Under the pieces are notes generated by a model that was not told the DNA's origin, did no database searches, and saw nothing but the letters and a program-made list of their open reading frames with translations. Shown here one piece after another: positions 15,080 to 48,376 of a DNA stretch of 48,408 nt (position 1 is the stretch's first letter; every line of letters begins with the position of its first letter). A program made the translations under genes and the position numbers. Source of the stretch: an uncultured Eubacteriales bacterium (GTDB lineage: Bacteria > Bacillota > Clostridia > Christensenellales > Aristaeellaceae); assembly GCA_902764875.1 (NCBI GenBank), contig CACWXP010000030.1:1-48408 (forward strand), written 5' to 3'.

Positions 15080-15153
15080 CGGGGTGTAGCGCAGTCTGGT
15101 AGCGCACGTGCTTTGGGAGCATGGGGCCGGGGGTTCGAATCCCTTCACCCCGA
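15080..15153 (+). tRNA. tRNA-Pro (TGG)
   Basis: The acceptor CGGGGTG/CACCCCG closes. The anticodon stem CGTGC/GCATG holds the 7-base loop TTTGGGA with anticodon TGG, and the T-loop is TTCGAAT. No CCA is encoded. Confidence 0.93.
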
Positions 15154-15173
15154 CTCAAACTTACCCTGTACGT

Positions 15174-15246
15174 GGCTCCGTGGTCAAGAGGCCTAAGACA
15201 CCGCCCTTTCACGGCGGCTACCCGGGTTCGAATCCCGGCGGAGTCA
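15174..15246 (+). tRNA. tRNA-Glu (TTC)
   Basis: Acceptor GGCTCCG pairs with CGGAGTC. The anticodon stem CCGCC/GGCGG encloses CTTTCAC, anticodon TTC. The T arm CCGGG-TTCGAAT-CCCGG is perfect. CCA is not encoded. Confidence 0.93.
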
Positions 15247-15267
15247 CTTTTTCTTCCTTTCCGATAT

Positions 15268-15341
15268 GGGCCTTTAGCTCAGTTGGTCAGAGCGGCCGGC
15301 TCATAACCGGTTGGTCCGGGGTTCAAGTCCCTGAAGGCCCA
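15268..15341 (+). tRNA. tRNA with CAT anticodon, most likely elongator tRNA-Met
   Basis: The acceptor GGGCCTT/AAGGCCC is perfect. The anticodon stem CCGGC/ACCGG region encloses CTCATAA (CAT). The first acceptor pair is matched, so it is not an initiator. A lysidine-modified tRNA-Ile2 also carries CAT and cannot be excluded by eye. Confidence 0.8.
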
Positions 15342-15351
15342 CAGCCTTTTT

Positions 15352-15428
15352 GGCCCGGTAGCTCAGTTGGTTAGAGCGCCAGCCTGTCACGCTGGAGGTC
15401 GAGGGTTCGAGCCCCTTCCGGGTCGCCA
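15352..15428 (+). tRNA. tRNA-Asp (GTC)
   Basis: Acceptor GGCCCGG pairs with CCGGGTC (one G-T). The anticodon stem CCAGC/GCTGG encloses CTGTCAC, anticodon GTC. CCA is encoded at 15426-15428. Confidence 0.93.
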
Positions 15429-15474
15429 CTTTTCTCAGGTTCGGATCCGCCGGCTGTGTTGGGAAGAGCTTCGT

Positions 15475-15550
15475 GCTGGCGTAGCTCAATTGGCAGAGCA
15501 GCTGATTTGTAATCAGCAGGTTGCGGGTTCGAGTCCCATCGCCAGCTCCA
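15475..15550 (+). tRNA. tRNA-Thr (TGT)
   Basis: Acceptor GCTGGCG pairs with CGCCAGC. The anticodon stem GCTGA/TCAGC encloses TTTGTAA, anticodon TGT. CCA is encoded at 15548-15550. Confidence 0.93.
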
Positions 15551-15615
15551 CCCTTTGGGTCAAGAGGGAACTGCCGCTATCAGCTTCGGTGGTTCGAATC
15601 CACCCCTGCCCACCA
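15551..15615 (+). pseudogene. tRNA-Tyr remnant lacking its anticodon arm
   Basis: Directly after the Thr CCA lies GGTCAAGAGGGAACTG, which looks like a Tyr D arm. It is joined to a variable-arm-like GCTATCAGCTTCGG, a perfect T arm (GGTGG-TTCGAAT-CCACC), the 3' acceptor strand CCTGCCC and an encoded ACCA. The anticodon stem-loop and the matching 5' acceptor strand (expected GGGCAGG) are absent, so it cannot fold as a tRNA. The Tyr identity is a judgement from the long variable arm and 3' half. It is either a deletion scar or a local assembly error. Confidence 0.65.
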
Positions 15616-15621
15616 TTTTCT

Positions 15622-15708
15622 GCGGGAATGGCGGAATTGGCAGACGCGCATGATTCAGGTTCATGTGTACGTACGTACTTGCAGGTTCAAGTCCTGTTTC
15701 CCGCACCA
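15622..15708 (+). tRNA. tRNA-Leu (CAG)
   Basis: Acceptor GCGGGAA pairs with TTCCCGC. The anticodon stem CATGA/TCATG encloses TTCAGGT, anticodon CAG. A long class-II variable arm follows, then the T arm GCAGG-TTCAAGT-CCTGT with encoded CCA at 15706-15708. Confidence 0.92.
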
Positions 15709-15939: not shown

Positions 15940-16380
15940 GTGCGCCCGGCGGCGCACGTGTCTAACGGGTGAAAGTCCCGAACCCGCCCGGTAGTGGGAA
16001 GGGTATAGCCGAAGGCAAGGGTGTCCACCGTGAGGTGGAATCTAAAGGAAGCCGGATGTGGGAGCAGACTAACCACGGGCAAACCTCTGGCCTGACGAAT
16101 AGAAACCACATATAAGGCAACGTATGAGGGTAAGGCTCCTAGACAAGTCAAAGCCCGATAGCTACACGGAATCATGCGGGGTAAATGTGGCAGGTAGATG
16201 GAGGGAAAGAAACGTGTGGTACCCGGGGAGACCTGCGCGGAACGCACTGAAAGGGGTAACCGTGGCCATATAAGGAAAGTCACGCTGAGCGCGCAGGAGT
16301 CAGCTGAGGCCATAGTACCAGAATTGGGAAGGGCCGAAGTAATGCCAAAGGGAAAGCACGGAATGCAAAGAGTATCCCGG
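15940..16380 (+). mobile_element. 5' fragment of a bacterial group II intron (domain I), without ORF or 3' domains
   Basis: The segment begins with the intron-like GTGCGCC-CGGC-GGCGCAC hairpin, then GTGTCTAACGGGTGAAAGTC and the long conserved domain-I core characteristic of mobile group II introns (for example AGCCGAAGGCAAGGGTGTCC, ACCACATATAAGGCAACGTA, TCAGCTGAGGCCATAGTACC). No reverse-transcriptase/maturase ORF and no domain V hairpin follow. The recognisable intron sequence fades near 16380, so the end coordinate is approximate. It is a truncated relic that could not splice or move by itself. Confidence 0.82.
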
Positions 16381-36354: not shown

Positions 36355-36382
36355 TTGACGGAAACGGGAAACATGTTATAAT
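36355..36382 (+). promoter_or_regulatory. Strong promoter of the leader/LysR sulfur transcription unit
   Basis: TTGACG (36355-36360), 16-base spacer, perfect TATAAT (36377-36382). Confidence 0.85.
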
Positions 36383-36388: not shown

Positions 36389-36411
36389 AAACCTACTGAA
36401 CAGATAGGTTT
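36389..36411 (+). promoter_or_regulatory. 5'-end hairpin of the leader transcript
   Basis: AAACCTA (36389-36395) and TAGGTTT (36405-36411) form a perfect 7-bp stem with a 9-base loop exactly at the predicted transcript start. It probably protects the RNA end or shapes the leader. Confidence 0.55.
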
Positions 36412-36435: not shown

Positions 36436-36534
36436 ATGATCAGACGGCAGGTTGAGAAGACAATGCGGAAGGAGCAGCGCTGTACCATGTGTATGTGGCG
36501 TAGTTTTCACATACCCTCCTGCTGTGCAAGCTGA
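36436..36534 (+). CDS. Cys/Met-rich leader peptide 1 (candidate attenuator ORF)
   Basis: A 32-codon ORF sits behind a superb ribosome site (AAAGGAGGAGG, 7-base gap). The centre reads RCTMCMW with codons TGT ACC ATG TGT ATG TGG, and the tail has adjacent TGC TGT (PSCCAS). The tract right after the central Cys codons can fold (GTATGTG 36491-36497 with CACATAC 36508-36514). CCTCCT at 36515-36520 is complementary to its own ribosome site. An intrinsic terminator follows 28 bases after the stop, and the LysR gene starts 33 bases after that. The same C-x-M-C core recurs in the leader at 47733. I infer a sulfur-amino-acid-sensing leader; a genuine metal-binding micropeptide is the alternative. Confidence 0.72.
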   Translation: MIRRQVEKTMRKEQRCTMCMWRSFHIPSCCAS

Positions 36535-36561
36535 TTTGCGGAAGAAACCAAATGGAAGGCA

Positions 36562-36589
36562 ACAGGCACAGTGGTGCCTGTATTTTTTT
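36562..36589 (+). terminator. Attenuator terminator between leader peptide 1 and the LysR gene
   Basis: ACAGGCAC (36562-36569), loop AGTG, GTGCCTGT (36574-36581), then A and seven T. It lies inside the transcription unit, upstream of the LysR start, so regulated read-through is expected. Confidence 0.85.
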
Positions 36590-36621
36590 ACCTTCAGGGG
36601 ATGAAAGGACGGTGAATTCGG

Positions 36622-37566
36622 ATGACTTTGCAGCAGGTGCTGTACGCACTGACGATTGAAGAATGCGGGTCAATGAACAAAGCGGCTGAAAAGCTGTTCA
36701 TCGTCCAGCCGACGCTGTCCAGCGCCATTCAGGAGCTGGAGAATGAAACGGGAATCAAAATTTTCGTAAGGACTTCCAAGGGGATCACACCGACGCCGGA
36801 GGGAAAAGCATTCCTGAACGATATCCAGAATCTGTACCGGCACTACACGCTGGTGAAACAGAAATATGGGGACGACGGAAACTACAGGAGGAAATTCGGC
36901 GTATCCGCCCAGCACTATTCCTTCGCCGTGAAAGCCTTTGTCGAGACGGCCAAGCGATATGACATGAAGCAGTTTGACTTTGCCGTTCGGGAAACGGGAA
37001 CGTTGAACGTGATTACGGATGTGGGGAGCCTTAAAAGCGAGATCGGCGTTCTGTTCATCAGCCCGCGAAACGAGAAACCGCTGCGGAAACTGATGACCCA
37101 ATACGAAGTGGAATTCCACCCGCTGGTAAAAGGCCGGGCCTGCGTTTATCTGTGGGGAGGGCACCCGCTGGCCAAAGAACCGTCGATCGGGATCGAACAG
37201 CTGGAACCTTATCCGTGCCTGTCCTTTGAACAGGACGAGGATGACTACTACCTGGCGGAAGAGATTCTGAGCGAAAACGTTTATCCTCAGACAATTCGGG
37301 TGCGCGACAGGTCAACGATGCTGAACCTGATGGTGGGGCTGAACGGGTATACCCTTTGCTCGGGAATCATTTCCAGCGATCTGAACGGGGAGGGGTTCAC
37401 GGTGATCCCGTTCCGGGAGGACACGGAGAACCCCAACAGCGTGATGGAGATTGGATATATCACAAAGAAAAACAGTCCGCTGAGCCAGATGGGAGAGGAG
37501 TATATAGAGGAAATGAGAAGGTATATGTCCGCAGGAGGTATCATCGCGTGTACGCAGCCTGAATGA
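36622..37566 (+). CDS. LysR-family transcriptional regulator of the sulfur locus
   Basis: This 314-residue protein has the standard LysR architecture: N-terminal winged helix (LYALTIEECGSMNKAAEKLF, IVQPTLSSAIQELENETGIK, PTPEGKAFL) and a two-lobed effector domain from about residue 90. No fresh promoter separates it from the leader ORF, so its expression depends on read-through of the terminator at 36562-36589. By position just before a sulfonate importer it probably plays a CysB/Cbl/CysL-like role; its inducer cannot be read from sequence. A rather distant AAGGACGG is the only ribosome site. Confidence 0.88.
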   Translation: MTLQQVLYALTIEECGSMNKAAEKLFIVQPTLSSAIQELENETGIKIFVRTSKGITPTPEGKAFLNDIQNLYRHYTLVKQKYGDDGNYRRKFGVSAQHYSFAVKAFVETAKRYDMKQFDFAVRETGTLNVITDVGSLKSEIGVLFISPRNEKPLRKLMTQYEVEFHPLVKGRACVYLWGGHPLAKEPSIGIEQLEPYPCLSFEQDEDDYYLAEEILSENVYPQTIRVRDRSTMLNLMVGLNGYTLCSGIISSDLNGEGFTVIPFREDTENPNSVMEIGYITKKNSPLSQMGEEYIEEMRRYMSAGGIIACTQPE

Positions 37567-37621
37567 TGGGAAAACGGAAACAACACCAATAAAAAACAAA
37601 AACAATCAGGAGGATATGAAG

Positions 37622-38587
37622 ATGAAAAAGATTTTTGCAGCAATGGTTGCTATAGCTCTGGTTTTGTTTACAGTTTCGGTTTACGCGGAATCCGGGAATC
37701 AGGAAATTACAGTGAACGTCGGAGATCAGGCGGCTTTCTTCCTGGTCAAGGTTGCAGAAGCCAAAGGGTTCTTTGAGGAAGAGTTTGCAAAGGATAACAT
37801 CAAGATCCATACAGAGATTTTTGCCAAAATGGGACCGGCCATTATCGAAGCTATGTCTACGGGTGATGTGGACCTGAGTATTGTCGGTGTGTTTCCTGTA
37901 GTCAATGCGAACAACGCCGGCAATAAGATCATCATTCTGGCCAGCGGTAACTATACAGAGGACGGATTCAGGCTTGTAGTCGGTCCGGAAGCAACCATCA
38001 CGAGCGTGGAAGAACTGAACGGCCTGAAGATCGGAGTTCCTTTCGGAACAGCTGAACATCAGATTACGCTTCAGCTTCTGGAAAAACACGGCCTGACAGC
38101 AGATCAGGTTGAACTGATAAACCTGCAACAGGCTGATGCACTCACAGCGCTTCTCGGCAAGGAAATCGACGCAGCATTGTTTAACAGCGGCACACTGAGT
38201 GCAGCGGAGAATGCGGGAGCGAAAACAATTGCCACCAACAAAGAAGTGGGGCTGATTGTGAATCCCGTGATCGGAAAAAAAGAATTCGTGGAAGCCAATC
38301 CTGAAATCACATCCAGATTCCTGAAGGTGCTGGACAAGACGGCAAAATGGATCGATGAGAACGAGGACGAAACGGTAAAAATCGCCGCTGAAATTAACGG
38401 AACCGACGAGGAAAGCATCCGGGTCAGCCTGCTTTCCAGAGGCAGAACGATCTCTATCGACGACGAGTATCTGAGGGGTCCGGTGGAATCCACGCTGAAC
38501 TTTGTTCTGGCCCAGGGCCTGATTGAGAACCTGGCCTACGACGATATTGTGGATACATCTTATTTTCTGAACGCGGGAATTCAGTGA
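37622..38587 (+). CDS. Sulfonate/taurine-type ABC transporter binding protein (SsuA family)
   Basis: ATG 37622 is 8 bases after AGGAGG and is preferred over 37616; 321 residues. The signal peptide is MKKIFAAMVAIALVLFTVSV with cleavage after YAE or nearby, and no lipobox. The NMT1/SsuA-like fold shows FFLVKVAEAKGFFEEEF, GPAIIEAMSTGDVDLSIVG, LNGLKIGVPFGTAEHQ and LLGKEIDAALF. It belongs with the permease at 39832 and ATPase at 40617, separated from them by the threonine-synthase-like gene. The family imports sulfonates, taurine, nitrate or pyrimidine precursors; the sulfur genes around it favour a sulfonate. Confidence 0.85.
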   Translation: MKKIFAAMVAIALVLFTVSVYAESGNQEITVNVGDQAAFFLVKVAEAKGFFEEEFAKDNIKIHTEIFAKMGPAIIEAMSTGDVDLSIVGVFPVVNANNAGNKIIILASGNYTEDGFRLVVGPEATITSVEELNGLKIGVPFGTAEHQITLQLLEKHGLTADQVELINLQQADALTALLGKEIDAALFNSGTLSAAENAGAKTIATNKEVGLIVNPVIGKKEFVEANPEITSRFLKVLDKTAKWIDENEDETVKIAAEINGTDEESIRVSLLSRGRTISIDDEYLRGPVESTLNFVLAQGLIENLAYDDIVDTSYFLNAGIQ

Positions 38588-38597
38588 GGAGATACAT

Positions 38598-39809
38598 ATG
38601 AAAAAGACGGGCAGTTTTCTGACAGGACTGGTTTGTCCGAAATGCGGAAAAAAATATGACAGCAGGAGGATTCAGCATCTGTGTGAATGCGGTTCTCCGC
38701 TGCTGGCTGAATATGATCTGAAAAAGGCAAGAGCGGAATGGAAGAAGGAAAGTGTTTCCGGACGGAAGCCAGATCTGTGGCGATACCGGGAACTGCTGCC
38801 CGTTGAGTATGAGGAAAACATCGTGACGGCGGGTGAGGGGATGACTCCCCTCATCCCGCTTCCCCTGCTTGGCGAAAAGCTGGATGTACCAAACCTGTTT
38901 CTGAAGGATGAGGGGATCATTCCGACGGGAACCTTTAAGGCGAGGGGAGCGGCAGTTGGCGTATCCAAAGCGAAAGAACTGGGTGTGCAGACGATTGCCA
39001 TGCCGACCAACGGGAATGCCGGTGCGGCATGGGCATTATATGGAAAGCGTGCCGGGTTTCGCTCCGTGATCGTGATGCCGGAAGACGCCGCGAAGATTAC
39101 AAGGAATGAATGCCTTGCCGCCGGGGCGGATATCTACCTGGTGAAGGGCCTGATCAGCGACGCCGGAAAGATTGTTGCCCGATCGATTGCCAGGAACGGA
39201 TGGTACGATGCATCAACGCTGAAAGAACCCTATCGGATCGAAGGAAAGAAAACAATGGGGTTTGAAATTGCGGAGCAATTCGGCTGGGAAGTGCCGGACG
39301 TGATTTTGTATCCGACCGGGGGCGGGGTTGGAATCATCGGGATTTACAAAGCACTGAAAGAGTTGCAGGAGATTGGATGGATTGGAGAAAAACTGCCGAA
39401 ACTGGTTTCCGTTCAGGCTGAAGGCTGCGCACCGATTGTGAAAGCTTTCAGGGAAGGAAAAGGAGAGTCTGAATACTTTACAGATTCCAGGACTGTCGCC
39501 TTCGGGATTAACGTTCCCAAAGCACTGGGGGATTTCCTCGTGCTGAAGGCAATCTATGAGACAAAAGGATGTGCCGTCGATGTTTCCGATGAGAAGATTC
39601 TGGAGGGAGTTCATCGATTGGCAGATACCGAAGGGATTTTTGTCTGCCCGGAGGGAGGGGCGCTGTATGCCGCGGTGGCCCGGCTGAGGGAAGAAGGTTT
39701 CATTCAAAAGGACGACAAGGTGGTTATGCTCAATACGGGAGCAGGCATCAAATATCCGGATACGATCGAACCGAATTTTCCCTATCTGGAGCTGGATGCC
39801 ACTATCTGA
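38598..39809 (+). CDS. Threonine-synthase-like PLP enzyme in a sulfonate operon
   Basis: This 403-residue fold-type-II PLP enzyme carries an N-terminal zinc ribbon (VCPKCGKKYDSRRIQHLCEC). The PLP lysine is Lys114 in GTFKARGAAVG, with the serine/asparagine loop MPTNGNAGAAWA and the phosphate cup LYPTGGGVGIIGI. Housekeeping threonine synthase uses O-phosphohomoserine, but archaeal cysteate synthase is a close paralogue that exchanges phosphate for sulfite. Placement inside an SsuABC-type operon that also has a sulfite reductase suggests beta-elimination or beta-replacement chemistry on a sulfur-containing amino acid. A plain threonine synthase recruited to the locus cannot be excluded. Confidence 0.8.
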   Translation: MKKTGSFLTGLVCPKCGKKYDSRRIQHLCECGSPLLAEYDLKKARAEWKKESVSGRKPDLWRYRELLPVEYEENIVTAGEGMTPLIPLPLLGEKLDVPNLFLKDEGIIPTGTFKARGAAVGVSKAKELGVQTIAMPTNGNAGAAWALYGKRAGFRSVIVMPEDAAKITRNECLAAGADIYLVKGLISDAGKIVARSIARNGWYDASTLKEPYRIEGKKTMGFEIAEQFGWEVPDVILYPTGGGVGIIGIYKALKELQEIGWIGEKLPKLVSVQAEGCAPIVKAFREGKGESEYFTDSRTVAFGINVPKALGDFLVLKAIYETKGCAVDVSDEKILEGVHRLADTEGIFVCPEGGALYAAVARLREEGFIQKDDKVVMLNTGAGIKYPDTIEPNFPYLELDATI

Positions 39810-39831
39810 TTGAAAAGGGGCAGTATATTGA

Positions 39832-40620
39832 ATGAAAAAGTGGAAGCAGCTGACCGGAACAGACAGAATACTGTATGCTTTGTCAGTGCTGTTGGTTGCA
39901 GCAATCCTGTGGTACTGGCAGACAGGCACAGATAACGGTACGCTGAACAAGGTTCTGCTTTCCTCGCCGGAAAATGTCCTGAAATCATTTACCCAACTGT
40001 GGGGAAAAGGCAGTTTGCAGAAACACATTCTTGTCAGCTTCCAGCGGGTTATGACAGGCTTTCTTTTCGGCGCGGGCGCCGGAATCATTCTTGGATTTAT
40101 TCTGGCTGCAGTTCCGGCACTGAAGAAATTGCTCAGTTTCCTGCTGGGGCTGATCCGGCCGATTCCTTCGATGGCGCTTTTTCCGCTTTTCATTCTCTGG
40201 TTTGGCATTGGCGAAACTTCAAAAATCATTGTGATCGCTTTTGTTTCTTTCTGGCCGACTTTTCTGAATACAGAGGAGGGAGTGCAACAGGCGGACAAAA
40301 AACTGCTTGAACTTGCAACCGTTCTGCAGAAAGGCACGGTTGCCAAAATTCTGACAGTCATTCTGCCATCCACCATTCCGTATATTTTTGCCGGCCTTCG
40401 TCTGGCCATCAGCAGAGCCTGGGGCGGTGTTGTCGTTGCGGAAATGCTGGCAGCTAGTTCCGGAATCGGCTTTTTGATCGAATACTCCCGGAACATGTCG
40501 CAAACCGCATCTATGTTTGTGGGCGTGCTGATGATTGCAATCATCGGTTTTATTCTGGATCTGATCCTGAAAATCATTGAAAGCAGGATATGCTACTGGC
40601 ACACGGGGGAAATCAAATGA
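39832..40620 (+). CDS. Sulfonate-type ABC transporter permease (SsuC/TauC family)
   Basis: This 262-residue membrane protein has about six hydrophobic segments. RPIPSMALFPLFILWFGIGE and the EAA-like KILTVILPSTIPYIFAGLRL are diagnostic of the SsuC/TauC/NrtB family. The ATPase gene overlaps its end by 4 bases. It forms the channel for the ligand delivered by the binding protein at 37622. Confidence 0.88.
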   Translation: MKKWKQLTGTDRILYALSVLLVAAILWYWQTGTDNGTLNKVLLSSPENVLKSFTQLWGKGSLQKHILVSFQRVMTGFLFGAGAGIILGFILAAVPALKKLLSFLLGLIRPIPSMALFPLFILWFGIGETSKIIVIAFVSFWPTFLNTEEGVQQADKKLLELATVLQKGTVAKILTVILPSTIPYIFAGLRLAISRAWGGVVVAEMLAASSGIGFLIEYSRNMSQTASMFVGVLMIAIIGFILDLILKIIESRICYWHTGEIK

Positions 40621-41396
40621 ACCGGGAAAATGAAGTTGTTATTTCGCATATCCGGCAGGAGTTTTCCATCGGAGACAAAACGCTTGAAGTTCTGAAAGAC
40701 ATCAATCTGGAACTGCAGGGCGGAAGCTTTGTTTCCGTTGTGGGTCAGAGCGGGTGCGGAAAAAGTACACTGCTGCGCATCATTGCCGGTCTGGACATTC
40801 CAACGGGCGGAGAGGTCAGGATCGGGGGAAATCCTGTTCAGTCAGTCAGCCCGGACGTGGGAATCCTTTTCCAGGAATCCAGACTGCTGCCCTGGTACAA
40901 TGTTGAAAAGAACATTGCGTATGGAATCCAGGAGAAAAAGAACAGGAAAGAGATCCGGGATACTGTTTATGAACTGATTGAACTGGTTGGACTGAAAGGC
41001 TTTGAAAAAGCGCTGCCAGAACAATTGTCCGGAGGAATGCAGAAGAGAGTAGCCATTGCAAGAACGCTGGCGGCACGCCCGAAAGTTCTCCTGCTGGATG
41101 AACCATTCGGAGCCCTGGATGCCTTTACAAAAATGAATATGCAGGAAGAGATTCTTAAGCTTTGGAAAAAGGAAGGAATCACCATGATGCTGGTGACGCA
41201 TGACATTGATGAGGCGATCTACCTGGGCGAACACGTTGTCGTCATGTCACCCAAACCCGGAGTGATCAAAAGAAGCTTCCGCATTGAACTGACATCAGAC
41301 AGGAGCAGAACCAGTGCAGAGTTTGACCGGTACAGAAAAGAGATTTTTGCTGAGTTTTTCGAGGATCAAACGATGGTTCCGGAGTATCAGATATGA
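40617..41396 (+). CDS. Sulfonate-type ABC transporter ATPase (SsuB/TauB family)
   Basis: Start ATG 40617 overlaps the permease stop (ATGA); 259 residues. Walker A is VVGQSGCGKSTLLRI, the Q-loop GILFQESRLLPW, signature LSGGMQKRVAIARTL, Walker B VLLLDEPFGALDAFT and H-loop VTHDIDEA. The PDVGILFQESRLLPW segment is typical of SsuB/TauB. The racemase gene overlaps its stop by 4 bases, so the genes from the permease to the racemase are translationally chained. Confidence 0.92.
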   Translation: MNRENEVVISHIRQEFSIGDKTLEVLKDINLELQGGSFVSVVGQSGCGKSTLLRIIAGLDIPTGGEVRIGGNPVQSVSPDVGILFQESRLLPWYNVEKNIAYGIQEKKNRKEIRDTVYELIELVGLKGFEKALPEQLSGGMQKRVAIARTLAARPKVLLLDEPFGALDAFTKMNMQEEILKLWKKEGITMMLVTHDIDEAIYLGEHVVVMSPKPGVIKRSFRIELTSDRSRTSAEFDRYRKEIFAEFFEDQTMVPEYQI

Positions 41397-42076
41397 AAAA
41401 ACTTGGGATTATCGGCGGCATGGGACCTCTGGCAACAGCTTTTTTTTATCGAAAAGTGGTTGAGAAAACGCCGGCAGAAAGGGATCAGCAGCATATAGAA
41501 ACCATCATTGTCAGCGGTCCGTCGATTCCGGGGAGAGTCGATTATATCCTTGGGAGGAGCGCTGACAGCCCGGTGCCGAACATCAGAAGAATCGTTCGAA
41601 CGCTGGAAAATGCCGGAGCGGAACGGATCGTGATGCCCTGTGTGACAGCGCATTATTTCTATCCGGAGATCTGCGAAGGGTTTTCTGTGCAGATACTGAA
41701 TCTGCTTTCGGAGATTGCTGCCTACTTTGCGGAAAAGAAGATCCGGAGGGCAGGGGTTCTGGCCACCTCTGCAACCATCAGAAGCAATGTGCTGCAGAAT
41801 GATCGCGGATTGAACGGAACAGAACTGCTCTTTCCGGATGAATGGGAGATGGAGGAGACAGACAGAATCATTTTCCGGCAGATCAAGGCCGGGAAAGAGG
41901 CAGATACGAAAACACTGCAGGGAATTGCCGATCACCTGGTGCGGCGGGGGGCTGAACAAATTCTTGTTGCGTGTACGGATCTGTCTGCTTTATCACCATC
42001 CGAATGGATGAACGGACCTGTGACCGATGTGCTCGATATTCTTGCGGAAGCCGCTGTGAGGGAATGTTTGAGGTAG
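41393..42076 (+). CDS. Aspartate/glutamate racemase-family protein
   Basis: This 227-residue protein starts with KKLGIIGGMGPLATAFFYRK, the standard opening of AspR/YgeA-type racemases. Both catalytic cysteines are present: Cys83 in VMPCVTAHYFYP (usual P-C-N-T-A-H) and Cys194 in LVACTDLSAL (usual G-C-T-E). The Asn to Val and Glu to Asp changes next to the cysteines are deviations from aspartate racemases. Cysteate and cysteine sulfinate are structural analogues of aspartate, so within this operon an acidic sulfur amino acid is an attractive substrate. That is inference. Confidence 0.83.
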   Translation: MKKLGIIGGMGPLATAFFYRKVVEKTPAERDQQHIETIIVSGPSIPGRVDYILGRSADSPVPNIRRIVRTLENAGAERIVMPCVTAHYFYPEICEGFSVQILNLLSEIAAYFAEKKIRRAGVLATSATIRSNVLQNDRGLNGTELLFPDEWEMEETDRIIFRQIKAGKEADTKTLQGIADHLVRRGAEQILVACTDLSALSPSEWMNGPVTDVLDILAEAAVRECLR

Positions 42077-42088
42077 GGGGAGAAGAAA

Positions 42089-43333
42089 ATGGAAGACGGC
42101 TGTCGGTTTAACACAAAGCTGCTGCACGGAAAAACATCCGCGGGATACAGGCAGCGGGAGATTCTTCCGCCGGTTTCACAGGTGACGGCTTTCCAGTATG
42201 AAAGCATGGAAGAACTGGAAAAAGTGTTTGCCCATAAAAAGATGGGATACGCCTATACGCGGATCGGCAATCCGACGCTGACGGCCTTTGAACAGAAAGT
42301 GAACGACATGGAGGGCGGCGCGGGCGCGATCAGCACCAGCAGCGGCATGGCGGCGATTACGGCGGCGCTGCTGGCCGTATGCGAAAGCGGGGATGAAATC
42401 ATCGCGGGATCCGGCCTGTACGGGGGAACGATTGACCTGCTGCACGACCTGGAAAAGCTGGGCATTCATACCGTTTTTGCCGGCGGCCTGACCAGGGCAG
42501 AGATCGAAAGCCGGCTGACCAAGAGAACAAAGGTGGTTTTCGGGGAAATGATCAGCAATCCAGCGCTGAAAGTGTTGGATGTTCCGGAGGCCGCGGCGGC
42601 TGCGCACGAAGCCGGCATACCGCTGTTTGTGGATTCCACGACGGCGACGCCCTTCATCGCAAGACCGCTGTCGCTGGGGGCGGATGTTGTGATCCATTCC
42701 ACCAGCAAGTATATTAACGGCGGAGGAAACGCCATCGGCGGAATCATTGTGGACGGAGGCCGTTTTGAATGGGATGAACGGCATACCGCTCTGCGTGAAT
42801 TCCGGAAATTCGGGAAGGCGGCTTTCTCCGTGCGGCTCCGGACGGACCTTTGGGAAAACCTCGGATGCTGCATGGCGCCAGCCAACGCGTTTCTTTCCTA
42901 TACGGGCATGGATACGCTGGGGCTGAGAATGGAAAGAATCTGCGAAAACGCGGACACACTGGCGCGGGCGCTGGACGAAGAGGAGGACATACAGGTCAGC
43001 TATCTGACACTAAAGTCGCATCCGTATCATGAATACCTTGCCAGGGAACTGGGCGGATACGGCGGCGGCATTCTGACGCTGAGAACCGGATCAAGGGAAA
43101 GAGCTTTCCGGCTGATTAACGCGCTGCATTATGTCAGAATCGCAAGCAACATCGGGGATGTGCGAACGCTGGTGATTCACCCGGCTTCCACGCTGTACCT
43201 GCGTTCTGGCCGCGAGGAAACGGAGGCCGCCGGCGTGTACGACGATACGATCCGGGTCAGCGTCGGTATTGAAGATATTGAGGATCTGATTCGGGACTTC
43301 CGGAACGCGGTGCGGGTCAGCCGGAATGCGTGA
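42089..43333 (+). CDS. MetY-like O-acetylhomoserine sulfhydrylase / Cys-Met metabolism PLP enzyme
   Basis: This 414-residue Cys/Met-metabolism PLP enzyme is near the usual MetY length. Features are GYAYTRIGNPTLTAFEQKV, STSSGMAAITAALL, GLYGGTIDLLHDL, FVDSTTATPFIARPL and the PLP-lysine segment IHSTSKYINGGGNAIGGIIV with Lys207. The long N-G-G-G-N-A-I-G-G-I-I-V-D-G-G stretch after the lysine is typical of MetY rather than MetB/MetC. It would join sulfide to O-acetyl- or O-succinylhomoserine, giving homocysteine. Its place just before TusA and sulfite reductase fits use of freshly made sulfide. Methionine gamma-lyase is the main alternative. Confidence 0.82.
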   Translation: MEDGCRFNTKLLHGKTSAGYRQREILPPVSQVTAFQYESMEELEKVFAHKKMGYAYTRIGNPTLTAFEQKVNDMEGGAGAISTSSGMAAITAALLAVCESGDEIIAGSGLYGGTIDLLHDLEKLGIHTVFAGGLTRAEIESRLTKRTKVVFGEMISNPALKVLDVPEAAAAAHEAGIPLFVDSTTATPFIARPLSLGADVVIHSTSKYINGGGNAIGGIIVDGGRFEWDERHTALREFRKFGKAAFSVRLRTDLWENLGCCMAPANAFLSYTGMDTLGLRMERICENADTLARALDEEEDIQVSYLTLKSHPYHEYLARELGGYGGGILTLRTGSRERAFRLINALHYVRIASNIGDVRTLVIHPASTLYLRSGREETEAAGVYDDTIRVSVGIEDIEDLIRDFRNAVRVSRNA

Positions 43334-43360
43334 ATCATTCATCAGGGGGAGGGAAAGAAC

Positions 43361-43606
43361 ATGGCATACATCAAAGCGGACGAGAGACTGGATATCACGG
43401 ACGTAGTGTGCCCGGTGACATTTGTGAAAACGAAGGTTGCCCTGGAAGAAATGGAGGAAGGGCAGATTCTGCAGGTTCATCTGAACGACGGCGAACCGGT
43501 TCAGAATGTTCCGCGGAGCGTGAAGGACGAAGGCCATAGGATTCTGAAACTTGAAGAAAACGACGACGGGACTTATGAGCTGTTTATCAGAAAGGTGGGG
43601 GAATAA
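43361..43606 (+). CDS. TusA-family sulfur carrier
   Basis: This 81-residue protein has the TusA/SirA core: DVVCPVTFVKTKVALEEMEE with sulfur-binding Cys17 followed by Pro, then GQILQVHLNDGEPVQNVPRS and the closing beta strand. It would hold a persulfide and pass sulfur between enzymes. The sulfite reductase starts on the base after its stop codon, so the two are tightly coupled. Such TusA/sulfite reductase pairs occur in sulfur-assimilation islands of anaerobes. Confidence 0.88.
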   Translation: MAYIKADERLDITDVVCPVTFVKTKVALEEMEEGQILQVHLNDGEPVQNVPRSVKDEGHRILKLEENDDGTYELFIRKVGE

Positions 43607-44476
43607 GTGGCTGTGGATTACGCTGTGCTTAAAAAAGGCGGCTTCATGCGCCAGAAGCAGAAGAATCATTTTTCTCTCCGCCTTTCCGTGGTCGGCGGAC
43701 AGGTGACGGCGGAACAGCTGGTTGCGATTACGGAAGTGGCGAAAAAATTCGGCAGGGGATACATCCACCTGACCAGCCGCCAGGGAATCGAGATTCCTTT
43801 TATCCGGCTGGAGGATATCGACAGCGTGAAGGCGGCCCTTGCCGAAGGCGGCGTAAGCCCCGGCGTTTGCGGGCCGAGGGTGCGAACCATCACGGCGTGC
43901 CAGGGAGCGGCCGTGTGCCCGAACGGTTGTATTGAAACGGAAGAGCTGGCCCGGGAACTGAACGACCGGTATTTCGGACAGGAACTGCCGCACAAATTCA
44001 AGTTCGGCGTGACCGGCTGCCAGAATAATTGCCTGAAGGCCGAAGAAAACGACCTTGGAATCAAAGGCGGCGTGAGGGTATCCTGGAAGGCGGACAAATG
44101 TTTTGCCTGCGGACTGTGCGCAAAACTGTGCCGGGAAGGGGCTGTTTCCATACACGACGGCAAGGTTGCGATTGATTCGGGAAAATGCAATTACTGCGGG
44201 AGATGCGCTTTCGGCTGCCCGGCGGATGCCTATGAAACGGCGCCCGGATATCTGCTGAGCTTCGGGGGATTGTTCGGCAACAGAATTCAGAAAGGTTCGC
44301 CGATTGTGCCTTTCGTGGAAGACAAGGAAAAACTGTTCGCGATCTGCGACGCGGCGCTGCAGTTTTTCCGGGAAAACGCGAACCCGAGCGAGCGGTTCCG
44401 TTCAACGATTGAGCGGGTCGGGAAGGAGAAACTGGATGAAGCGGTTTGGAAAGCGTACAACGGAGAAACGAAATAG
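43607..44476 (+). CDS. Siroheme/4Fe-4S sulfite reductase with fused ferredoxin domain
   Basis: This 289-residue protein starts at GTG directly after the TusA stop, with GTGGGGG upstream. The siroheme-4Fe4S ligands are Cys98 and Cys104 (TACQGAAVC) and Cys138 and Cys142 (GCQNNC). These sit inside a nitrite/sulfite reductase half-domain beginning FSLRLSVVGGQVTAEQL. Two 4Fe-4S motifs follow from Cys165: CFACGLCAKLC and CNYCGRCAFGC. The compact one-subunit layout resembles AsrC-like or small Fsr-type sulfite reductases rather than CysI. It should reduce sulfite to sulfide, taking electrons through its ferredoxin part. Nitrite reduction is less likely given the neighbours. Confidence 0.85.
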   Translation: MAVDYAVLKKGGFMRQKQKNHFSLRLSVVGGQVTAEQLVAITEVAKKFGRGYIHLTSRQGIEIPFIRLEDIDSVKAALAEGGVSPGVCGPRVRTITACQGAAVCPNGCIETEELARELNDRYFGQELPHKFKFGVTGCQNNCLKAEENDLGIKGGVRVSWKADKCFACGLCAKLCREGAVSIHDGKVAIDSGKCNYCGRCAFGCPADAYETAPGYLLSFGGLFGNRIQKGSPIVPFVEDKEKLFAICDAALQFFRENANPSERFRSTIERVGKEKLDEAVWKAYNGETK

Positions 44477-45341
44477 CATTTTGACGCTGATGCTGATCCT
44501 CTCTCTTCTGGCAGGATGCGCCGCCGGAACGGCCGCGGCTGAAACGGCGAAGGGCGCATTCGACCGGGTGATCGCCCTGTCCAGATCCAATGCGGAACTC
44601 TGGATTCTTGCGGGAGGGAAACTCATCGCGACTTCGGACGACGCCGCCGGCATGGACGGGCTGAACGAGGACGCGCAGTTTCTGGGGGATATGGATCATG
44701 TGAGCCTGGAAGCCATTGCCGCGCTGTCGCCGGATCTGCTGATTCTTTTTTCAACGGAACCGGCGCAGAAAGCGCTGGGAGAGGCGGCTGAAGGGATAGG
44801 CATCCATGTATACTACACCAATATCGACAGCTTTGACGACTATGACCGGGTGATGAAGGAACTGACGGGCTTTACGGGCTGTTCCGGGGCCTATGAACGC
44901 CATGTGGAGCAGGTTCGGGAGGAAATCGGCGGGATTCTGCGGCAGGTTCCGGAAAAGGCGGAAAAGGACAGCTACCTGCTGCTGCATGTGTCTGCGACGA
45001 AGAGCAAGGCGGAGAAAAACGACTACTTTGCATGCGAGATCCTGAACGGGCTGGGACTGGACAACCTGGCCGGGGACAGCAGCGCATTTGACGTGCTGTC
45101 CATGGAGGCGATTGTTGCCGCGGATCCCGACTATATTTTTGTGGTGCCGAGGGGAAATGAAAAAAAGGCGGCGGAGAGCTATGAAAAACTCTTTTCATCC
45201 CAACCGGCATGGGAAGCACTGTCCGCGGTTCGCGACGGACGCCATTTCCTGCTGGACAAGAATCTTTTCGGACTGAAACCGAACGCGCGGTGGGCGGAGG
45301 CGTACAGGGAGGCCTATGACCTTCTGTACGGGCAGCCGTGA
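44436..45341 (+). CDS. FecB/BtuF-type binding lipoprotein
   Basis: Start ATG 44436 lies inside the sulfite reductase gene (41-base overlap) after GGAAGGAG; 301 residues. The lipoprotein signal ends in SLLAGC, so unlike the other binding proteins in this window it is lipid-anchored. The helical-backbone cluster A-II fold is suggested by LEAIAALSPDLLILFSTEPA, IHVYYTNIDSFDDYDRVMKE and VAADPDYIFVVPRGN. It pairs with the permease and ATPase that follow. The class takes up iron-siderophores, haem, cobalamin or related chelates. Confidence 0.83.
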   Translation: MKRFGKRTTEKRNSILTLMLILSLLAGCAAGTAAAETAKGAFDRVIALSRSNAELWILAGGKLIATSDDAAGMDGLNEDAQFLGDMDHVSLEAIAALSPDLLILFSTEPAQKALGEAAEGIGIHVYYTNIDSFDDYDRVMKELTGFTGCSGAYERHVEQVREEIGGILRQVPEKAEKDSYLLLHVSATKSKAEKNDYFACEILNGLGLDNLAGDSSAFDVLSMEAIVAADPDYIFVVPRGNEKKAAESYEKLFSSQPAWEALSAVRDGRHFLLDKNLFGLKPNARWAEAYREAYDLLYGQP

Positions 45342-46318
45342 GAAGGTATGTGACAGCCGGAATCGTGCTGATCCTTGCTGCGGCTGCCGCGCTGCTGTGC
45401 GGCAACAGCGCGATCGGAGCGGGAGACGTGCTGCGGACGCTGGCAGGAAACGGAACGCGGGCACAGCAGGTGATCGTTTTTCAGGTCAGGCTTCCGCGAA
45501 TAGCCGCCGCTTTGCTTTCGGGCGCCGCACTTTCGGTTTCCGGCTATCTTCTGCAGAACAACCTGAATAACGCGGTCGCGTCTCCGGGACTGCTGGGGAT
45601 CAACAACGGCGCCGGACTTTTCGTGCTGATTTCGGCACTTGTTTTTCCGTATCAGGCGGGAATGAAATGCGTGATGGCTTTTGCGGGGGCGCTTGCGGTT
45701 ACGCTGCTGGTGAGTCTTCTTTCTTCGGGAACCGGACTGTCGAAAACGTCCGTCATTCTGAGCGGGGTTGCGGTTTCCGCCGTATGCGTTGCCGCGGCCG
45801 ACGTGATCATCTCAGTCAGGCCGGAGACCGTGGCCGACAAGACCGCGTTCCAGCTGGGAGGGTTTGGGGATGTATCCCTGACGACGGTCTCCATCGCGGC
45901 GCCGGTGATTGTGACGATGCTTGCGCTGGCTTTTGTGCTGGCAGGCGGGATGGACCTGATGGCGCTGGGGGACGAGGTTGCGCAGGGGCTTGGCGTCCAC
46001 GTGCGGATGTACAGGCTGATTTACCTTCTGTGCGCCTCTCTTCTGGCCGGGGCGGCGGTGAGCATGAGCGGGATGATCGGGTTTGTAGGGCTGATGGTTC
46101 CGAACCTGGTCCGCATGGTTCATCGCGGGAAAAGCAGGGGAGGAATTGCGCTGTGCATGATGGTCGGATCGGCATTTTTGCTGCTGTGCGATACACTTGC
46201 CCGGGCGATTGTTTTTCCGTATGAGCTGCCATGCGGGCTGCTGCTTAGCGCGCTGGGCGCGCCGTTCCTGATCTGGATGCTTGTGCGGAAAAGAAAGAGG
46301 CTTGGTGTGAATGATTGA
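45338..46318 (+). CDS. FecCD-family ABC transporter permease
   Basis: GTG 45338 overlaps the lipoprotein stop by 4 bases; 326 residues. FecCD family markers are VRLPRIAAALLSGAALSVSG, LLGINNGAGLFVL, SMSGMIGFVGLMVPNLVRMV and PYELPCGLLLSALGAPFLIW. About nine to ten membrane segments. It functions with the upstream lipoprotein and the downstream ATPase. Confidence 0.9.
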   Translation: MRRYVTAGIVLILAAAAALLCGNSAIGAGDVLRTLAGNGTRAQQVIVFQVRLPRIAAALLSGAALSVSGYLLQNNLNNAVASPGLLGINNGAGLFVLISALVFPYQAGMKCVMAFAGALAVTLLVSLLSSGTGLSKTSVILSGVAVSAVCVAAADVIISVRPETVADKTAFQLGGFGDVSLTTVSIAAPVIVTMLALAFVLAGGMDLMALGDEVAQGLGVHVRMYRLIYLLCASLLAGAAVSMSGMIGFVGLMVPNLVRMVHRGKSRGGIALCMMVGSAFLLLCDTLARAIVFPYELPCGLLLSALGAPFLIWMLVRKRKRLGVND

Positions 46319-47072
46319 GATCCGCAATATGACCACTTCCTATGGACGCGGGGAGCTTTTCCGCGTGGCCGGCCTTACGCTGAAAACGGGTGAAATCACC
46401 GCCGTGATCGGCAGAAACGGAAGCGGAAAATCCACACTGCTGAAAACCCTGGCCGGCTTTCTGAAATATCAGGGAAGCATTACGATCCGCGGCAGGGAAT
46501 GCAGGGATTATTCCGCCCGGGAGAGAGCAAGAGAGATTGCCTGGCTGTCGCAGATGCTGAAAACCGTGCAGATGGACGTGGAAACGCTGGCGGAACACGG
46601 AAGGTATCCGCACCACGGCAGCACGCGGCGGATGGGCGACGCGGACAGGGAGAAGGTGAAGGAAGCCCTGCGCATGACCGGGATGGAAAAGATGGCAAAG
46701 AGATCTTTGCAGGAGCTGTCCGGCGGGGAAAGACAGCGGGCCTATCTGGCCATGGTCATTGCCCAGGACACCCCCATGATTCTGCTGGACGAACCGACCA
46801 CATACATGGATCTTGTTTACCAGAAAACTTTCTTTGAGATTCTTCAGCGTCTGAAGCAAAGCGGGCGGGGGATCGTGCTGTCCGTTCATCACCTGGAGCA
46901 ATGCTTTGCATTCTGTGATTCGATCTGCCTGATGGATCAGAGAACGCTGGTGCGGAAAGCAACGCCGGAGGAATGGGCAAAGGATACGGACACATTGCGG
47001 GCCGTGTTCGGCATTGAAATGAAAAAAACAGAGGACAGGGAATTGATGTATCCCTATATGATCAGGAGGTGA
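46311..47072 (+). CDS. FecE-family ABC transporter ATPase
   Basis: This 253-residue ATPase overlaps the permease by 8 bases. Walker A is AVIGRNGSGKSTLLKTL, Q-loop AWLSQMLKTVQMDVE, signature LQELSGGERQRAYLAM, Walker B MILLDEPTTYMDL and H-loop SVHHLEQC. It energises the FecBCD-type importer. Spacing and overlap show it is cotranscribed with sulfite reductase and the siroheme gene. Confidence 0.9.
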   Translation: MIEIRNMTTSYGRGELFRVAGLTLKTGEITAVIGRNGSGKSTLLKTLAGFLKYQGSITIRGRECRDYSARERAREIAWLSQMLKTVQMDVETLAEHGRYPHHGSTRRMGDADREKVKEALRMTGMEKMAKRSLQELSGGERQRAYLAMVIAQDTPMILLDEPTTYMDLVYQKTFFEILQRLKQSGRGIVLSVHHLEQCFAFCDSICLMDQRTLVRKATPEEWAKDTDTLRAVFGIEMKKTEDRELMYPYMIRR

Positions 47073-47077
47073 GAGGA

Positions 47078-47650
47078 ATGGCTTACTTTCCGATGATGGT
47101 CAGCCTGGAAAACCGGCCTGTTCTGGTTCTGGGAGGGGGAGCGGAAGGCCTGAAGAAAGTCAGGGTTCTGCACGACTTTGGCGCAAGAATCACCCTGGTG
47201 GCAAAGGACGCACTGCCCGAAGCTTCGGCACTGGCGGAGAAATACGCTGCGAAAGCATTCACGGATGAGGATCTGGACGGGGAGAAATATGCGGTTGTCG
47301 TTGCCGCCACGGATGAAGAAGAGCTGAACAGGAGAATCAGCAGCCTTTGCACAAGCAGGGGCATTCCGGTGAATATCGTCGACAGGACAGAACTGTGCAC
47401 TTTCATCTTTCCCGCGATCATTCGGGAAAACGACCTGGTTTGCGCGGTGTCAAGCTCCGGAAAAAGCCCGCTGGTAACGCAGCATATCAAGGCGCTGATC
47501 CAAAGAATCCTCCCGAAAAAAATCGGGCAGATCAATGACCGGATGGGTGAATACCGCATACAGGCCAAAGCGGAGATTCCGAATGCCGGGGAGCGGCGGA
47601 AATATCTGAAAAGCAAACTGGAGGAACTGCTGGCTGAAGAACAAATATAA
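47078..47650 (+). CDS. Precorrin-2 dehydrogenase / sirohydrochlorin ferrochelatase (siroheme synthesis)
   Basis: ATG 47078 with AGGAGG 9 bases upstream is preferred over GTG 47069; 190 residues. It matches the N-terminal part of CysG and Met8/YlnF-type enzymes: YFPMMVSLENRPVLVLGGGA (NAD-binding Rossmann loop), AVVVAATDEEELNRRISSLC, IPVNIVDRTELCTFIFPAII and AVSSSGKSPLVTQHIKALI. It oxidises precorrin-2 and may insert iron, producing the siroheme required by the sulfite reductase upstream. No uroporphyrinogen methyltransferase is in the window. Confidence 0.9.
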   Translation: MAYFPMMVSLENRPVLVLGGGAEGLKKVRVLHDFGARITLVAKDALPEASALAEKYAAKAFTDEDLDGEKYAVVVAATDEEELNRRISSLCTSRGIPVNIVDRTELCTFIFPAIIRENDLVCAVSSSGKSPLVTQHIKALIQRILPKKIGQINDRMGEYRIQAKAEIPNAGERRKYLKSKLEELLAEEQI

Positions 47651-47663
47651 AACATTATACCCA

Positions 47664-47692
47664 TTGACATAGTAGACAATAGGCGTTATGAT
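47664..47692 (+). promoter_or_regulatory. Strong promoter of the second leader / rhodanese unit
   Basis: Perfect TTGACA (47664-47669), 17-base spacer, TATGAT (47687-47692). Confidence 0.85.
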
Positions 47693-47732
47693 CCCAACAA
47701 GTCCTATGCTGCGATGAAAGGAGGGTACTGAT

Positions 47733-47843
47733 ATGTTTACTGAAAAGAAGGAATTCATGCTGTGTATGATGTGTCGAATGCTGATTTTCCGGACAGACAG
47801 GATGACCGGGGTATTGACATATACATGTCAGTACCCTGAATAG
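47733..47843 (+). CDS. Cys/Met-rich leader peptide 2 (candidate attenuator ORF)
   Basis: This 36-codon ORF follows AAAGGAGGG with a 6-8 base gap. Its N-terminal half reads FMLCMMCRML, codons ATG CTG TGT ATG ATG TGT CGA ATG. It shares the TGT-NNN-ATG-TGT core (Cys-x-Met-Cys) with the leader at 36436. A charged stretch (TEKKE) precedes the core. Near the end it encodes TYTCQYPE, and this part of the RNA folds into a stable hairpin. An intrinsic terminator follows 34 bases after the stop, before the rhodanese gene. I infer translation-controlled attenuation by Cys and/or Met supply. Confidence 0.72.
   Translation: MFTEKKEFMLCMMCRMLIFRTDRMTGVLTYTCQYPE
47807..47838 (+). promoter_or_regulatory. 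Stable leader hairpin overlapping the end of leader peptide 2
   Basis: GGGTATTGACAT (47809-47820) and ATGTCAGTACCC (47825-47836) pair fully (one G-T) around loop ATAC; two more outer pairs are possible. A translating ribosome would melt it; a ribosome stalled at the Cys codons 35-45 bases upstream would not. Confidence 0.7.
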
Positions 47844-47877
47844 CCAAATGACAGAAAGACATGGCAGTCATCCTGCC

Positions 47878-47907
47878 CGGAAGCCGTATAAACAGCTTCC
47901 GTTTTTT
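47878..47907 (+). terminator. Attenuator terminator between leader peptide 2 and the rhodanese gene
   Basis: CGGAAGC (47878-47884) pairs with GCTTCCG (47895-47901), followed at once by six T. It lies upstream of the rhodanese start within the same unit. Confidence 0.82.
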
Positions 47908-47944
47908 GTCGCCATGGAGAGATGATGTGAGAGGGAGAACCATG

Positions 47945-48376
47945 ATGAGCAACGAGGAAACGTTCAGGCATATTTCAGTCGAAGAATTCTCCGGACTGGA
48001 TTTCAGTACGGTTACCCTGCTGGACCTGCGGGAACCGGATGAGGTACTGGTCAGCGGTATAGATGGCGCAATCAATCTGCCGTTTTCTGCCGGTTTTGAA
48101 AAATTGGATGCTGTTCCCAAAGATAAACCGGTGATTGTTTTCTGCCGTGTCGGAGACTGGAGTGAACAGATCGCGGAAATTCTGGCTGACCGCGGCTACG
48201 ATGTGTCCACACTGGACGGAGGATACAACGCATACCGCGCGCTGAAATCTCTCGCGACGACAAAAGAGATTCCGGTTCAATCGGTGAAAACAGGTCGGGG
48301 TAAACCGGTTAAAGTACTCCCCATGTCAAGGACAATCGAATTTAACACCCTGGAAAACAGTTACCAATCATGGTAG
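47945..48376 (+). CDS. Rhodanese-domain sulfurtransferase
   Basis: ATG 47945 (or 47942) follows GGGAG; 143 residues. The single rhodanese domain includes ISVEEFSGLDFSTVTLLDLR, GIDGAINLPFSAGFEKL, the active-site loop VFCRVGDWSEQIAE with Cys67, and YDVSTLDGGYNAYRAL. The C-terminal 35 residues beyond the domain are basic and unfamiliar (PVQSVKTGRGKPVKVLP). It would carry persulfide sulfur in the cytosol, linking to TusA or the sulfhydrylase. A ribosome site (GGAGG) near 48395 announces another gene beyond the window. Confidence 0.87.
   Translation: MSNEETFRHISVEEFSGLDFSTVTLLDLREPDEVLVSGIDGAINLPFSAGFEKLDAVPKDKPVIVFCRVGDWSEQIAEILADRGYDVSTLDGGYNAYRALKSLATTKEIPVQSVKTGRGKPVKVLPMSRTIEFNTLENSYQSW

Follow-up and report, generated by a model that had tools for sequence, protein, structure and literature searches.

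Two Cys-codon leaders precede sulfur genes

We analyzed a 48,408-nucleotide stretch of DNA, hereafter the window (contig CACWXP010000030.1 of assembly GCA_902764875.1), from an uncultured Eubacteriales bacterium of the family Aristaeellaceae, and examined two short open reading frames (ORFs) in it, leader 1 and leader 2, together with their surroundings (Table 1). Both leaders have a promoter-like site with 11 of 12 consensus matches, a strong Shine-Dalgarno (SD) site, and an intrinsic terminator ahead of the next gene. The motif TGTNNNATGTGT occurs exactly twice in the window (36481-36492 and 47763-47774; 0.16 expected; a count of two was reached in 1 of 100 shuffles), each time in frame within one of these SD-preceded short ORFs (36436-36534 and 47733-47843). 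A sequence-only reading of this DNA had pointed to two ORFs carrying TGT-NNN-ATG-TGT in the same layout ahead of sulfur genes, and both points are borne out: the codons are in frame behind an SD and a promoter-like site and ahead of a terminator, and the leaders precede a LysR/SsuA-like/sulfhydrylase/TusA cluster (leader 1) and a rhodanese gene (leader 2). From sequence evidence we propose, with a probability of roughly 0.83, that both leaders are ribosome-mediated transcription attenuators that would turn sulfur genes on when cysteinyl-tRNA, and possibly methionyl-tRNA too, is scarce.

Table 1. Features of the two leaders and of the genes behind them in the window
Feature	Position	Strand	Details
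Promoter-like site, leader 1	36355..36382	+	TTGACG-16-TATAAT, TG before second hexamer; 11/12 consensus positions
Dyad ACCTACTGAACAGATAGG	36391..36408	+	Directly past the -10; possible operator (putative function); similar dyads near relatives' promoters
Leader peptide 1 ORF	36436..36534	+	32 aa, MIRRQVEKTMRKEQRCTMCMWRSFHIPSCCAS; SD AAAGGAGGAGG
Leader 1 Cys/Met codon cluster	36481..36498	+	TGT ACC ATG TGT ATG TGG; proposed sensor codons
Leader 1 antiterminator arm, proposed by hand	36519..36527	+	CTGCTGTGC; pairs with GCACAGTGG at 36566-36574, two G-U
Leader 1 intrinsic terminator	36562..36589	+	Hairpin 36562-36581 plus T-run
LysR-type regulator	36622..37566	+	First gene after leader 1; PF00126, PF03466
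Genes behind leader 1	37616..47650	+	SsuA-like, threonine-synthase-like, permease, ATPase, Asp/Glu racemase, OAH/OAS-sulfhydrylase-like, TusA, sulfite-reductase-like, binding protein/FecCD/ATPase transporter, siroheme-synthase-type NAD-binding protein
Promoter-like site, leader 2	47664..47692	+	TTGACA-17-TATGAT; 11/12 positions
Leader peptide 2 ORF	47733..47843	+	36 aa, MFTEKKEFMLCMMCRMLIFRTDRMTGVLTYTCQYPE; SD AAAGGAGGG
Leader 2 core	47772..47780	+	TGTCGAATG, Cys-Arg-Met codons, class-constant part; TGT is the proposed sensor codon
Leader 2 antiterminator, 5′ side	47786..47806	+	TTTCCGGACA at 47786-47795 (9/10 aligned pairs form) and CAGGATGAC at 47798-47806 (9 bp)
Leader 2 antiterminator, 3′ side	47867..47883	+	GTCATCCTGCCCGGAAG; overlaps terminator 5′ arm
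Leader 2 intrinsic terminator	47878..47907	+	CGGAAGC, 10-nt loop, GCTTCCG, T6; hairpin 47878-47901
Whole class element, leader 2	47763..47909	+	Model without the window: 77.6 bits, E=1.3e-14
Rhodanese-domain protein	47942..48376	+	Behind leader 2; PF00581; contig end at 48408 limits the view further downstream

Leader 2 belongs to a recurrent class

Leader 2 is a member of a class of elements in which TGTCGAATG, encoding Cys-Arg-Met, is followed after 5 nt by an antiterminator arm complementary to the 5′ side of a terminator. Class leaders of O-acetylhomoserine (OAH) sulfhydrylase genes share M-C-C-R-M-L-x-S-R-A, and the corresponding leader 2 stretch is M-C-R-M-L-I-F-R-T. Among 14 Cys-Arg-Met leaders gathered before the nucleotide pattern was used, 12 have the codons TGTCGAATG and the other two, both solute-binding-protein leaders, have TGCCGCATG. 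N-termini differ in sequence and length across the class, and only the core, both pairing arms and the terminator stand out from an otherwise weakly conserved alignment. A related but distinct leader type, MMCRMCCFRRPSHLK, lies at about 990-1114 in loci L036-L038 before an SBP_bac_3 binding protein, with the codons TGCCGCATG and the arm CGTCCGTCTC.

The ORF, its frame, the SD, the terminator, a mutually exclusive pairing with compensatory changes, the spacing and the gene context can all be established for this class from sequence. We defined 65 distinct elements by RNA sequence only (TGTCGAATG-N5-YTCCCRGG); 59 of them have a single SD-ATG at most 78 nt upstream, and the core is in frame with it in 59/59, with the proviso that many of the 65 were fetched by a pattern requiring an SD-ATG in any frame. 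The other six have no SD-ATG under the strict rule, among them the C20 copy of the window's own genome, whose site is weaker. A looser element pattern also yields chance matches: of 70 rows fetched with it, 11 were out of frame, and several more were long or had no terminator. A terminator was present by scan in 54 of the 65 elements; the general scan (loops of 3-8 nt) misses the leader 2 terminator with its loop of 10, which a separate script detects. Counted from the first base of the Cys codon, the longest arm helix begins at +14 in 41 of 52 elements and between +12 and +15 in 47 of 52.

A search model, R2, was built from 40 elements with the window, its own genome and all other families left out. 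It detects leader 2 (77.6 bits, E=1.3e-14), the three other copies in the own genome, and elements in five Lachnospiraceae loci (L055, L059, L061, L062 and L075, the last from Pseudobutyrivibrio), while leader 1 is not listed at E<=10. Because a leader-2-class model that excludes the window finds leader 2 and not leader 1, the two leaders are, by this measure, not one family. The sequence-only reading had proposed a single attenuator family; attenuators before sulfur genes and in a translated frame are retained from that proposal, and the common family is not. A second model, R1, finds four elements in the own genome (all four in its training set), which precede an OAH sulfhydrylase, a MetQ/NlpA protein, a cystine-like amino-acid ABC operon and the rhodanese; it matches 26 of 61 relatives, all of the own genus, and 0 of 24 genomes from other families of the order. 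Among 391 genomes drawn from the taxonomic class, the class DNA pattern occurs in 10, at 13 places in families f1, f34, f47 and f64, and its reversed form has no match; scattered over few genomes and families, the class is therefore patchy in its spread. No Cys/Met leader was found in the stretches around the three metN genes of genome G000, and a class element lies just outside them, before MetQ on contig C5.

We next assigned downstream genes for 67 elements, of which 9 had no ORF of at least 90 aa in the fetched stretch and 58 had one; assignment was by BLAST linkage, with Pfam and NCBIfam run on representatives only. The 58 ORFs comprise 26 of OAH sulfhydrylase or cystathionine-synthase-like (CGS) type, 13 amino-acid ABC permeases, 10 solute-binding proteins (SBP_bac_3 or NlpA), 2 MetN, 2 PepT-like peptidases, 2 that look like wrong-frame picks over a permease, and single cases of a rhodanese, a JAB-domain protein and a CysK-like fragment (L339, read from sequence). 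A profile search was expected by the sequence-only reading to return repeated hits in sulfur contexts alone, each with a terminator: contexts do recur and are mostly sulfur-related, with terminators in the 54/65 elements noted above. In the same family, the SAM riboswitch (S-box) occurs in 51 of 60 genomes, in single copy in 49, and metK is the gene behind it both in the own genome and in 9 of the 10 loci examined; T-boxes, found in 30 of 30 genomes tried, may control other sulfur genes.

Cys/Met richness is shared by leaders at sulfur loci

The Cys-x-Met-Cys (C-x-M-C) signature had been taken for a retained core. We rejected it as such, since it is rare among relatives' leaders: it appears in 1 of 59 other leader-2-class peptides (the window being excluded from the 59), 1/3 LysR-ssu, 1/1 ssuB, 2/2 solute-binding-protein, 2/6 CGS, 0/10 OAH sulfhydrylase and 2/22 metN leaders, counts in which some leaders had been collected via the C-x-M-C pattern itself. 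Among the matches listed for that pattern in relatives, 57 rows included 37 in frame, many of them long proteins, and 19 matches were chosen by eye from those listed, together with one own-contig stretch. Across 52 loci, short SD-ORFs with C-x-M-C stand at 7 places with a terminator, all before sulfur-type genes (two being the window's), and at 10 places without a detected terminator, including the binding-protein leader of G099. In a search of the own genome (3.27 Mb assembled, 93% complete), SD-ATG-(12-42)-TGYNNNATGTGY matched the two window leaders alone and its reversed form had 0 matches.

We also scanned loci of the same family on both strands without regard to residue content, seeking SD-ORFs of 12-45 aa with a terminator at 50 metN genes and 70 Cys/Met-metabolism pyridoxal-phosphate (PLP) enzymes (in both cases part of the matches), 30 glnA genes and 10 S-boxes. 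Cys and Met together make up at least 18% of residues in 22 of 24 candidates upstream of metN, 10 of 19 at PLP enzymes, 0 of 5 at glnA and 1 of 2 at S-box loci. Two examples are MQITAMMMRMSMMMCEASPRFFCCVA, upstream of metN, and MTRTVKLCCCHMCMCRSMPVCHLALL, upstream of a cystathionine-synthase-like gene. The metN and CGS leaders arrange Cys and Met in unrelated ways, and Cys/Met richness, rather than C-x-M-C, is what these leaders have in common.

Antiterminator pairs of the leader 2 class show compensatory changes

In leader 2, the antiterminator 5′ side (47786-47806) pairs with 47867-47885, with TTTCCGGACA (one mismatch) and CAGGATGAC opposite GTCATCCTG-CCCGGAAG. Most class members pair CTCCCGGGCA with TGCCCGGGAG, the Lachnospiraceae arm pairs CTCCCAGGCA with TGCCTGGGAG and thereby changes Arg to Gln, a further variant pairs CTCCCGGACA with TGTCCGGGAG, and the window has TTCCGG/CCGGAA. 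Residues after Cys-Arg-Met accordingly vary (Ser-Arg-Ala, Ser-Gln-Ala, Phe-Arg-Thr) along with the paired terminator arm. Of 56 sequences in which a terminator was recognised, 55 (after removal of one duplicate) make up alignment A1, which contains 14 antiterminator pairs with 96.5% of cells paired, and two-sided changes in 8 of the 14 pairs (22 such cells). None of 500 shuffles, which ignore relatedness, scored as high on any measure, and slid versions of the pairing reached 20-47%. A T-tailed hairpin overlaps the antiterminator 3′ arm in 55/55 aligned elements, a set chosen for having a terminator. When the energy of the arm/terminator duplex was compared with that of dinucleotide shuffles (L036 omitted, as it has no terminator), leader 2 gave z=-3.1 and p=0.015, and p<=0.05 was also reached by 9 of 10 OAH sulfhydrylase leaders, both Lachnospiraceae Cys-Arg-Met leaders tested and 1 of 2 solute-binding-protein leaders. 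Chance origin was rejected for leader 2 on the covariation and the held-out model, and for leader 1 not fully.

According to the proposed mechanism for the leader 2 class, a ribosome would translate up to the Cys codon, the TGT of TGTCGAATG. Were Cys-tRNA short, it would wait with TGT in the A site and its leading edge just before the arm, and the free arm, which lies in leader codons, could pair with the terminator 5′ side, so that no terminator forms and RNA polymerase continues into the sulfur gene; with Cys-tRNA plentiful, the ribosome would move onto the arm and the terminator would form. A ribosome covers about 15 nt downstream of the first base of its P site, so a ribosome stalled with TGT in its A site should leave an arm that begins at +14 accessible and should cover it after moving one or two codons ahead. 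The sensor cluster of leader 1 would be TGT ACC ATG TGT ATG. What we infer in this scheme is that the ribosome stalls on Cys, which way the response goes, and that leader 1 follows the same logic. Computing arm pairing codon by codon with the ribosome footprint kept unpaired gave, for leader 2, a fall from 0.8 and 0.6 at the core Cys codons to 0.4 at the Arg codon and 0.1 at the Met codon, and the L158 and L178 leaders switch in a similar manner.

Several results weigh against attenuation of this kind. Arm pairing in leader 2 recovers after Met to 0.4-0.7, with 0.5 at the stop codon, and the L167 and L181 leaders hold 0.7-0.9 throughout; since pairing recovers or persists, timing or a protecting hairpin must account for termination, and TGTCGAATGC with GCGTYCGGC is a candidate for such a hairpin (77% of cells paired, above slid versions, without covariation). 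Leader 2 is itself among the 5 of 52 spacing exceptions: its longest unbroken helix, the outer 9 bp, starts at +26, and the aligned arm at +14 carries one mismatch. The terminator scan found none in 11 of the 65 class elements, two of the 58 downstream ORFs are PepT-like peptidases, and the wobble bases of TGTCGAATG are constant though codon sensing alone needs no such constancy. The duplex test reached p<=0.05 in just 1 of 6 CGS and 3 of 22 metN leaders and in 0 of 4 leaders of the leader 1 type, where leader 1 has z=0.1 and its relatives -0.1, -0.8 and -0.8; that type has four known members, two of them nearly identical.

Leader 1 is a probable attenuator of a sulfonate-linked cluster

Leader 1 has three relatives, all from Lachnospiraceae: L055 and L056, which are nearly identical, and L062. 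Each retains the SD-ORF, the Met-Cys cluster and the terminator core GGYACRGYGGTGCC before LysR or SsuB-type genes, the SsuB-type gene being that of L062. A search of 30 genomes with the GGYACRGYGGTGCC core, a pattern written from leader 1 and these three relatives, gave just those four copies. A ribosome at the leader 1 stop codon would cover the arm CTGCTGTGC (36519-36527). Leader 1 could instead be an ORF that arose by chance in an unremarkable 5′ region, with the operon controlled only by LysR or by the promoter dyad; that its antiterminator is not significant, that a LysR gene directly follows, that a dyad lies at the promoter and that most LysR relatives have no such leader (2 of 31 loci, L055 and L056, have an SD-ORF with at least 2 Cys and a terminator directly upstream; L071 offers 9 nt of upstream sequence only) all favor this explanation. 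Against it stand the three Lachnospiraceae loci, two nearly identical, that keep ORF, cluster and terminator, and the own-genome pattern search that returned two sulfur leaders only. We judge a chance ORF to be unlikely, though the strongest competitor, and regard leader 1 as a probable attenuator, sulfonate-linked and separate from the leader 2 class.

A dyad resembling ACCTAYT-N5-ARTAGGT coincides with or lies in the promoter of leader 1, and the same holds for several Lachnospiraceae leaders (CCTATTGACATAGTAGG around the -35); in L055, L056 and L062 such dyads lie within about 100 nt upstream of the leader ORFs. This dyad is a possible candidate operator of a second, DNA-level sulfur regulator. 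From spacing and strand, the genes behind leader 1 appear to form one operon. Just 2 of 150 family genomes, the own genome being one of them, have a relative of the window SsuA, and for that reason the sulfonate/sulfite cluster (36622-47650) looks horizontally acquired; the closest LysR relatives found are from Lachnospiraceae metagenome-assembled genomes, at up to 79%. The sulfonate cluster also includes, at 38598-39809, a PLP enzyme that is threonine-synthase-like and matches cysteate synthase below threshold. Elsewhere in the window, six tRNA genes lie at 15080-15705, followed by two Rfam group II intron matches at 16024-16334.

Nascent-peptide and RNA-only explanations are less likely

Another explanation, also raised by the sequence-only reading as peptide binding of a signal, is an arrest peptide or a metal- or thiol-binding nascent peptide, in which the Cys-rich leader itself would detect thiols, metals or oxidants independently of codon supply. 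Cys clusters can bind metal, and the residues C-R-M-L-x-S-R are strongly conserved in the class; the C-R-M residues hardly vary. The residues beyond them shift with the terminator arm: where CTCCCGGGCA/TGCCCGGGAG is replaced by CTCCCAGGCA/TGCCTGGGAG, Arg becomes Gln, and the window has TTCCGG/CCGGAA instead. N-termini are variable in sequence and length, and metN and CGS leaders arrange Cys and Met unrelatedly. Peptide sensing is thus disfavored, and we consider it very improbable.

Slightly less credible still is a pure RNA element, either a metabolite riboswitch or a protein-binding RNA with an incidental ORF, which would account for a TGTCGAATG constant even at wobble bases in 12 of 14 Cys-Arg-Met leaders (the other two having TGCCGCATG) and is countered by in-frame SD-ATGs in 59/59, by the weak conservation beyond core, pairing arms and terminator, and by Rfam, where no family reaches its gathering score. 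That Rfam search, SAM-I riboswitch and T-box included, listed at E<=1 only eukaryotic RNA families far under their gathering scores at the two leaders; a riboswitch, T-box or other Rfam family was rejected there, none having matched. Pfam and NCBIfam searches of both leader peptides gave no matches.

Discussion

Accounts of sulfur-amino-acid genes in Firmicutes usually centre on S-box, T-box and CymR-type regulation. The family of the window genome, which named relatives suggest to be within or near the Clostridia, has putative leader-peptide attenuators whose layout is very regular before several sulfur operons, with the S-box, where examined, before metK. With its regular spacing and compensatory changes, the mechanism lends itself to direct testing, and in uncultured genomes the element can help to annotate transporters of sulfur compounds and sulfhydrylases.

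A broader reading, which we put forward tentatively and think rather doubtful, is that TGTCGAATG is more than three codons, its wobble constancy over several families and genes marking a nucleotide-level signal that would tune a clostridial sulfur regulon, and that Cys-codon attenuators, spread with their genes, might hold the S-box's usual targets and leave metK to the S-box. Such a signal might, for example, be a programmed pause directly after Cys at CGA, a codon that many bacteria use rarely, or a site recognized by an RNA or protein acting in trans.

Attenuation by a translating leader is a known mechanism. In trp and his attenuators the position of the ribosome selects antiterminator or terminator, and a leucine-rich attenuator peptide reportedly exists in Staphylococcus aureus (PMC5794164); the window leaders would share this ribosome-position logic with the trp, his and leucine systems, which use other amino acids. 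In Firmicutes, S-box (SAM-I) and T-box elements control sulfur and methionine genes by transcription attenuation, whereas neither matches at either leader, and the family's S-box is usually single and before metK. Polycysteine ORFs of mycobacteria are said, by the title of Canestrari 2020, to be leaderless and cysteine-responsive, in contrast to the window leaders, which are SD-led with a terminator and an antiterminator.

The mycobacterial polycysteine work is cited in the relevant passage of PMC13236596. For Actinobacteria, the sections of PMC1262725 on these regions describe cysteine leader peptides, Cys-codon short ORFs before cys operons, and find no conserved terminator hairpins in mycobacterial cys regions. 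His leader peptides occur in Firmicutes according to PMC2965389, whose passages on their distribution state that, ermC aside, no leader peptide system was known to it outside Proteobacteria and Actinobacteria. Searches of an open-access library listed no paper with a title or abstract opening on Cys-codon attenuators before sulfur genes in Clostridia.

The closest parallel is the uORFC-8-2 motif before cysS in Rhodobacterales, presented in the part of PMC8632094 devoted to it as a short upstream ORF with conserved Cys codons and a U-tailed terminator-like stem, for which ribosome-mediated attenuation by Cys-tRNA shortage was proposed (PMC8632094). Like the window leaders, it joins a Cys-codon short ORF to a terminator-like stem with proposed Cys-tRNA attenuation. 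Its placement differs from that of the window leaders, which precede LysR and rhodanese genes, and inspection of the clusters showed no cysS among the 58 downstream ORFs, no cysS model having been run. As described there, uORFC-8-2 belongs to Alphaproteobacteria, stands before cysS only and has tandem Cys codons at about positions 14 and 15 (PMC8632094), whereas the window leader class serves transport, sulfhydrylase and sulfur-transfer genes, has a Cys-Arg-Met core and carries its antiterminator arm in leader codons. The mechanism is a known one; the family and the regulon are new.

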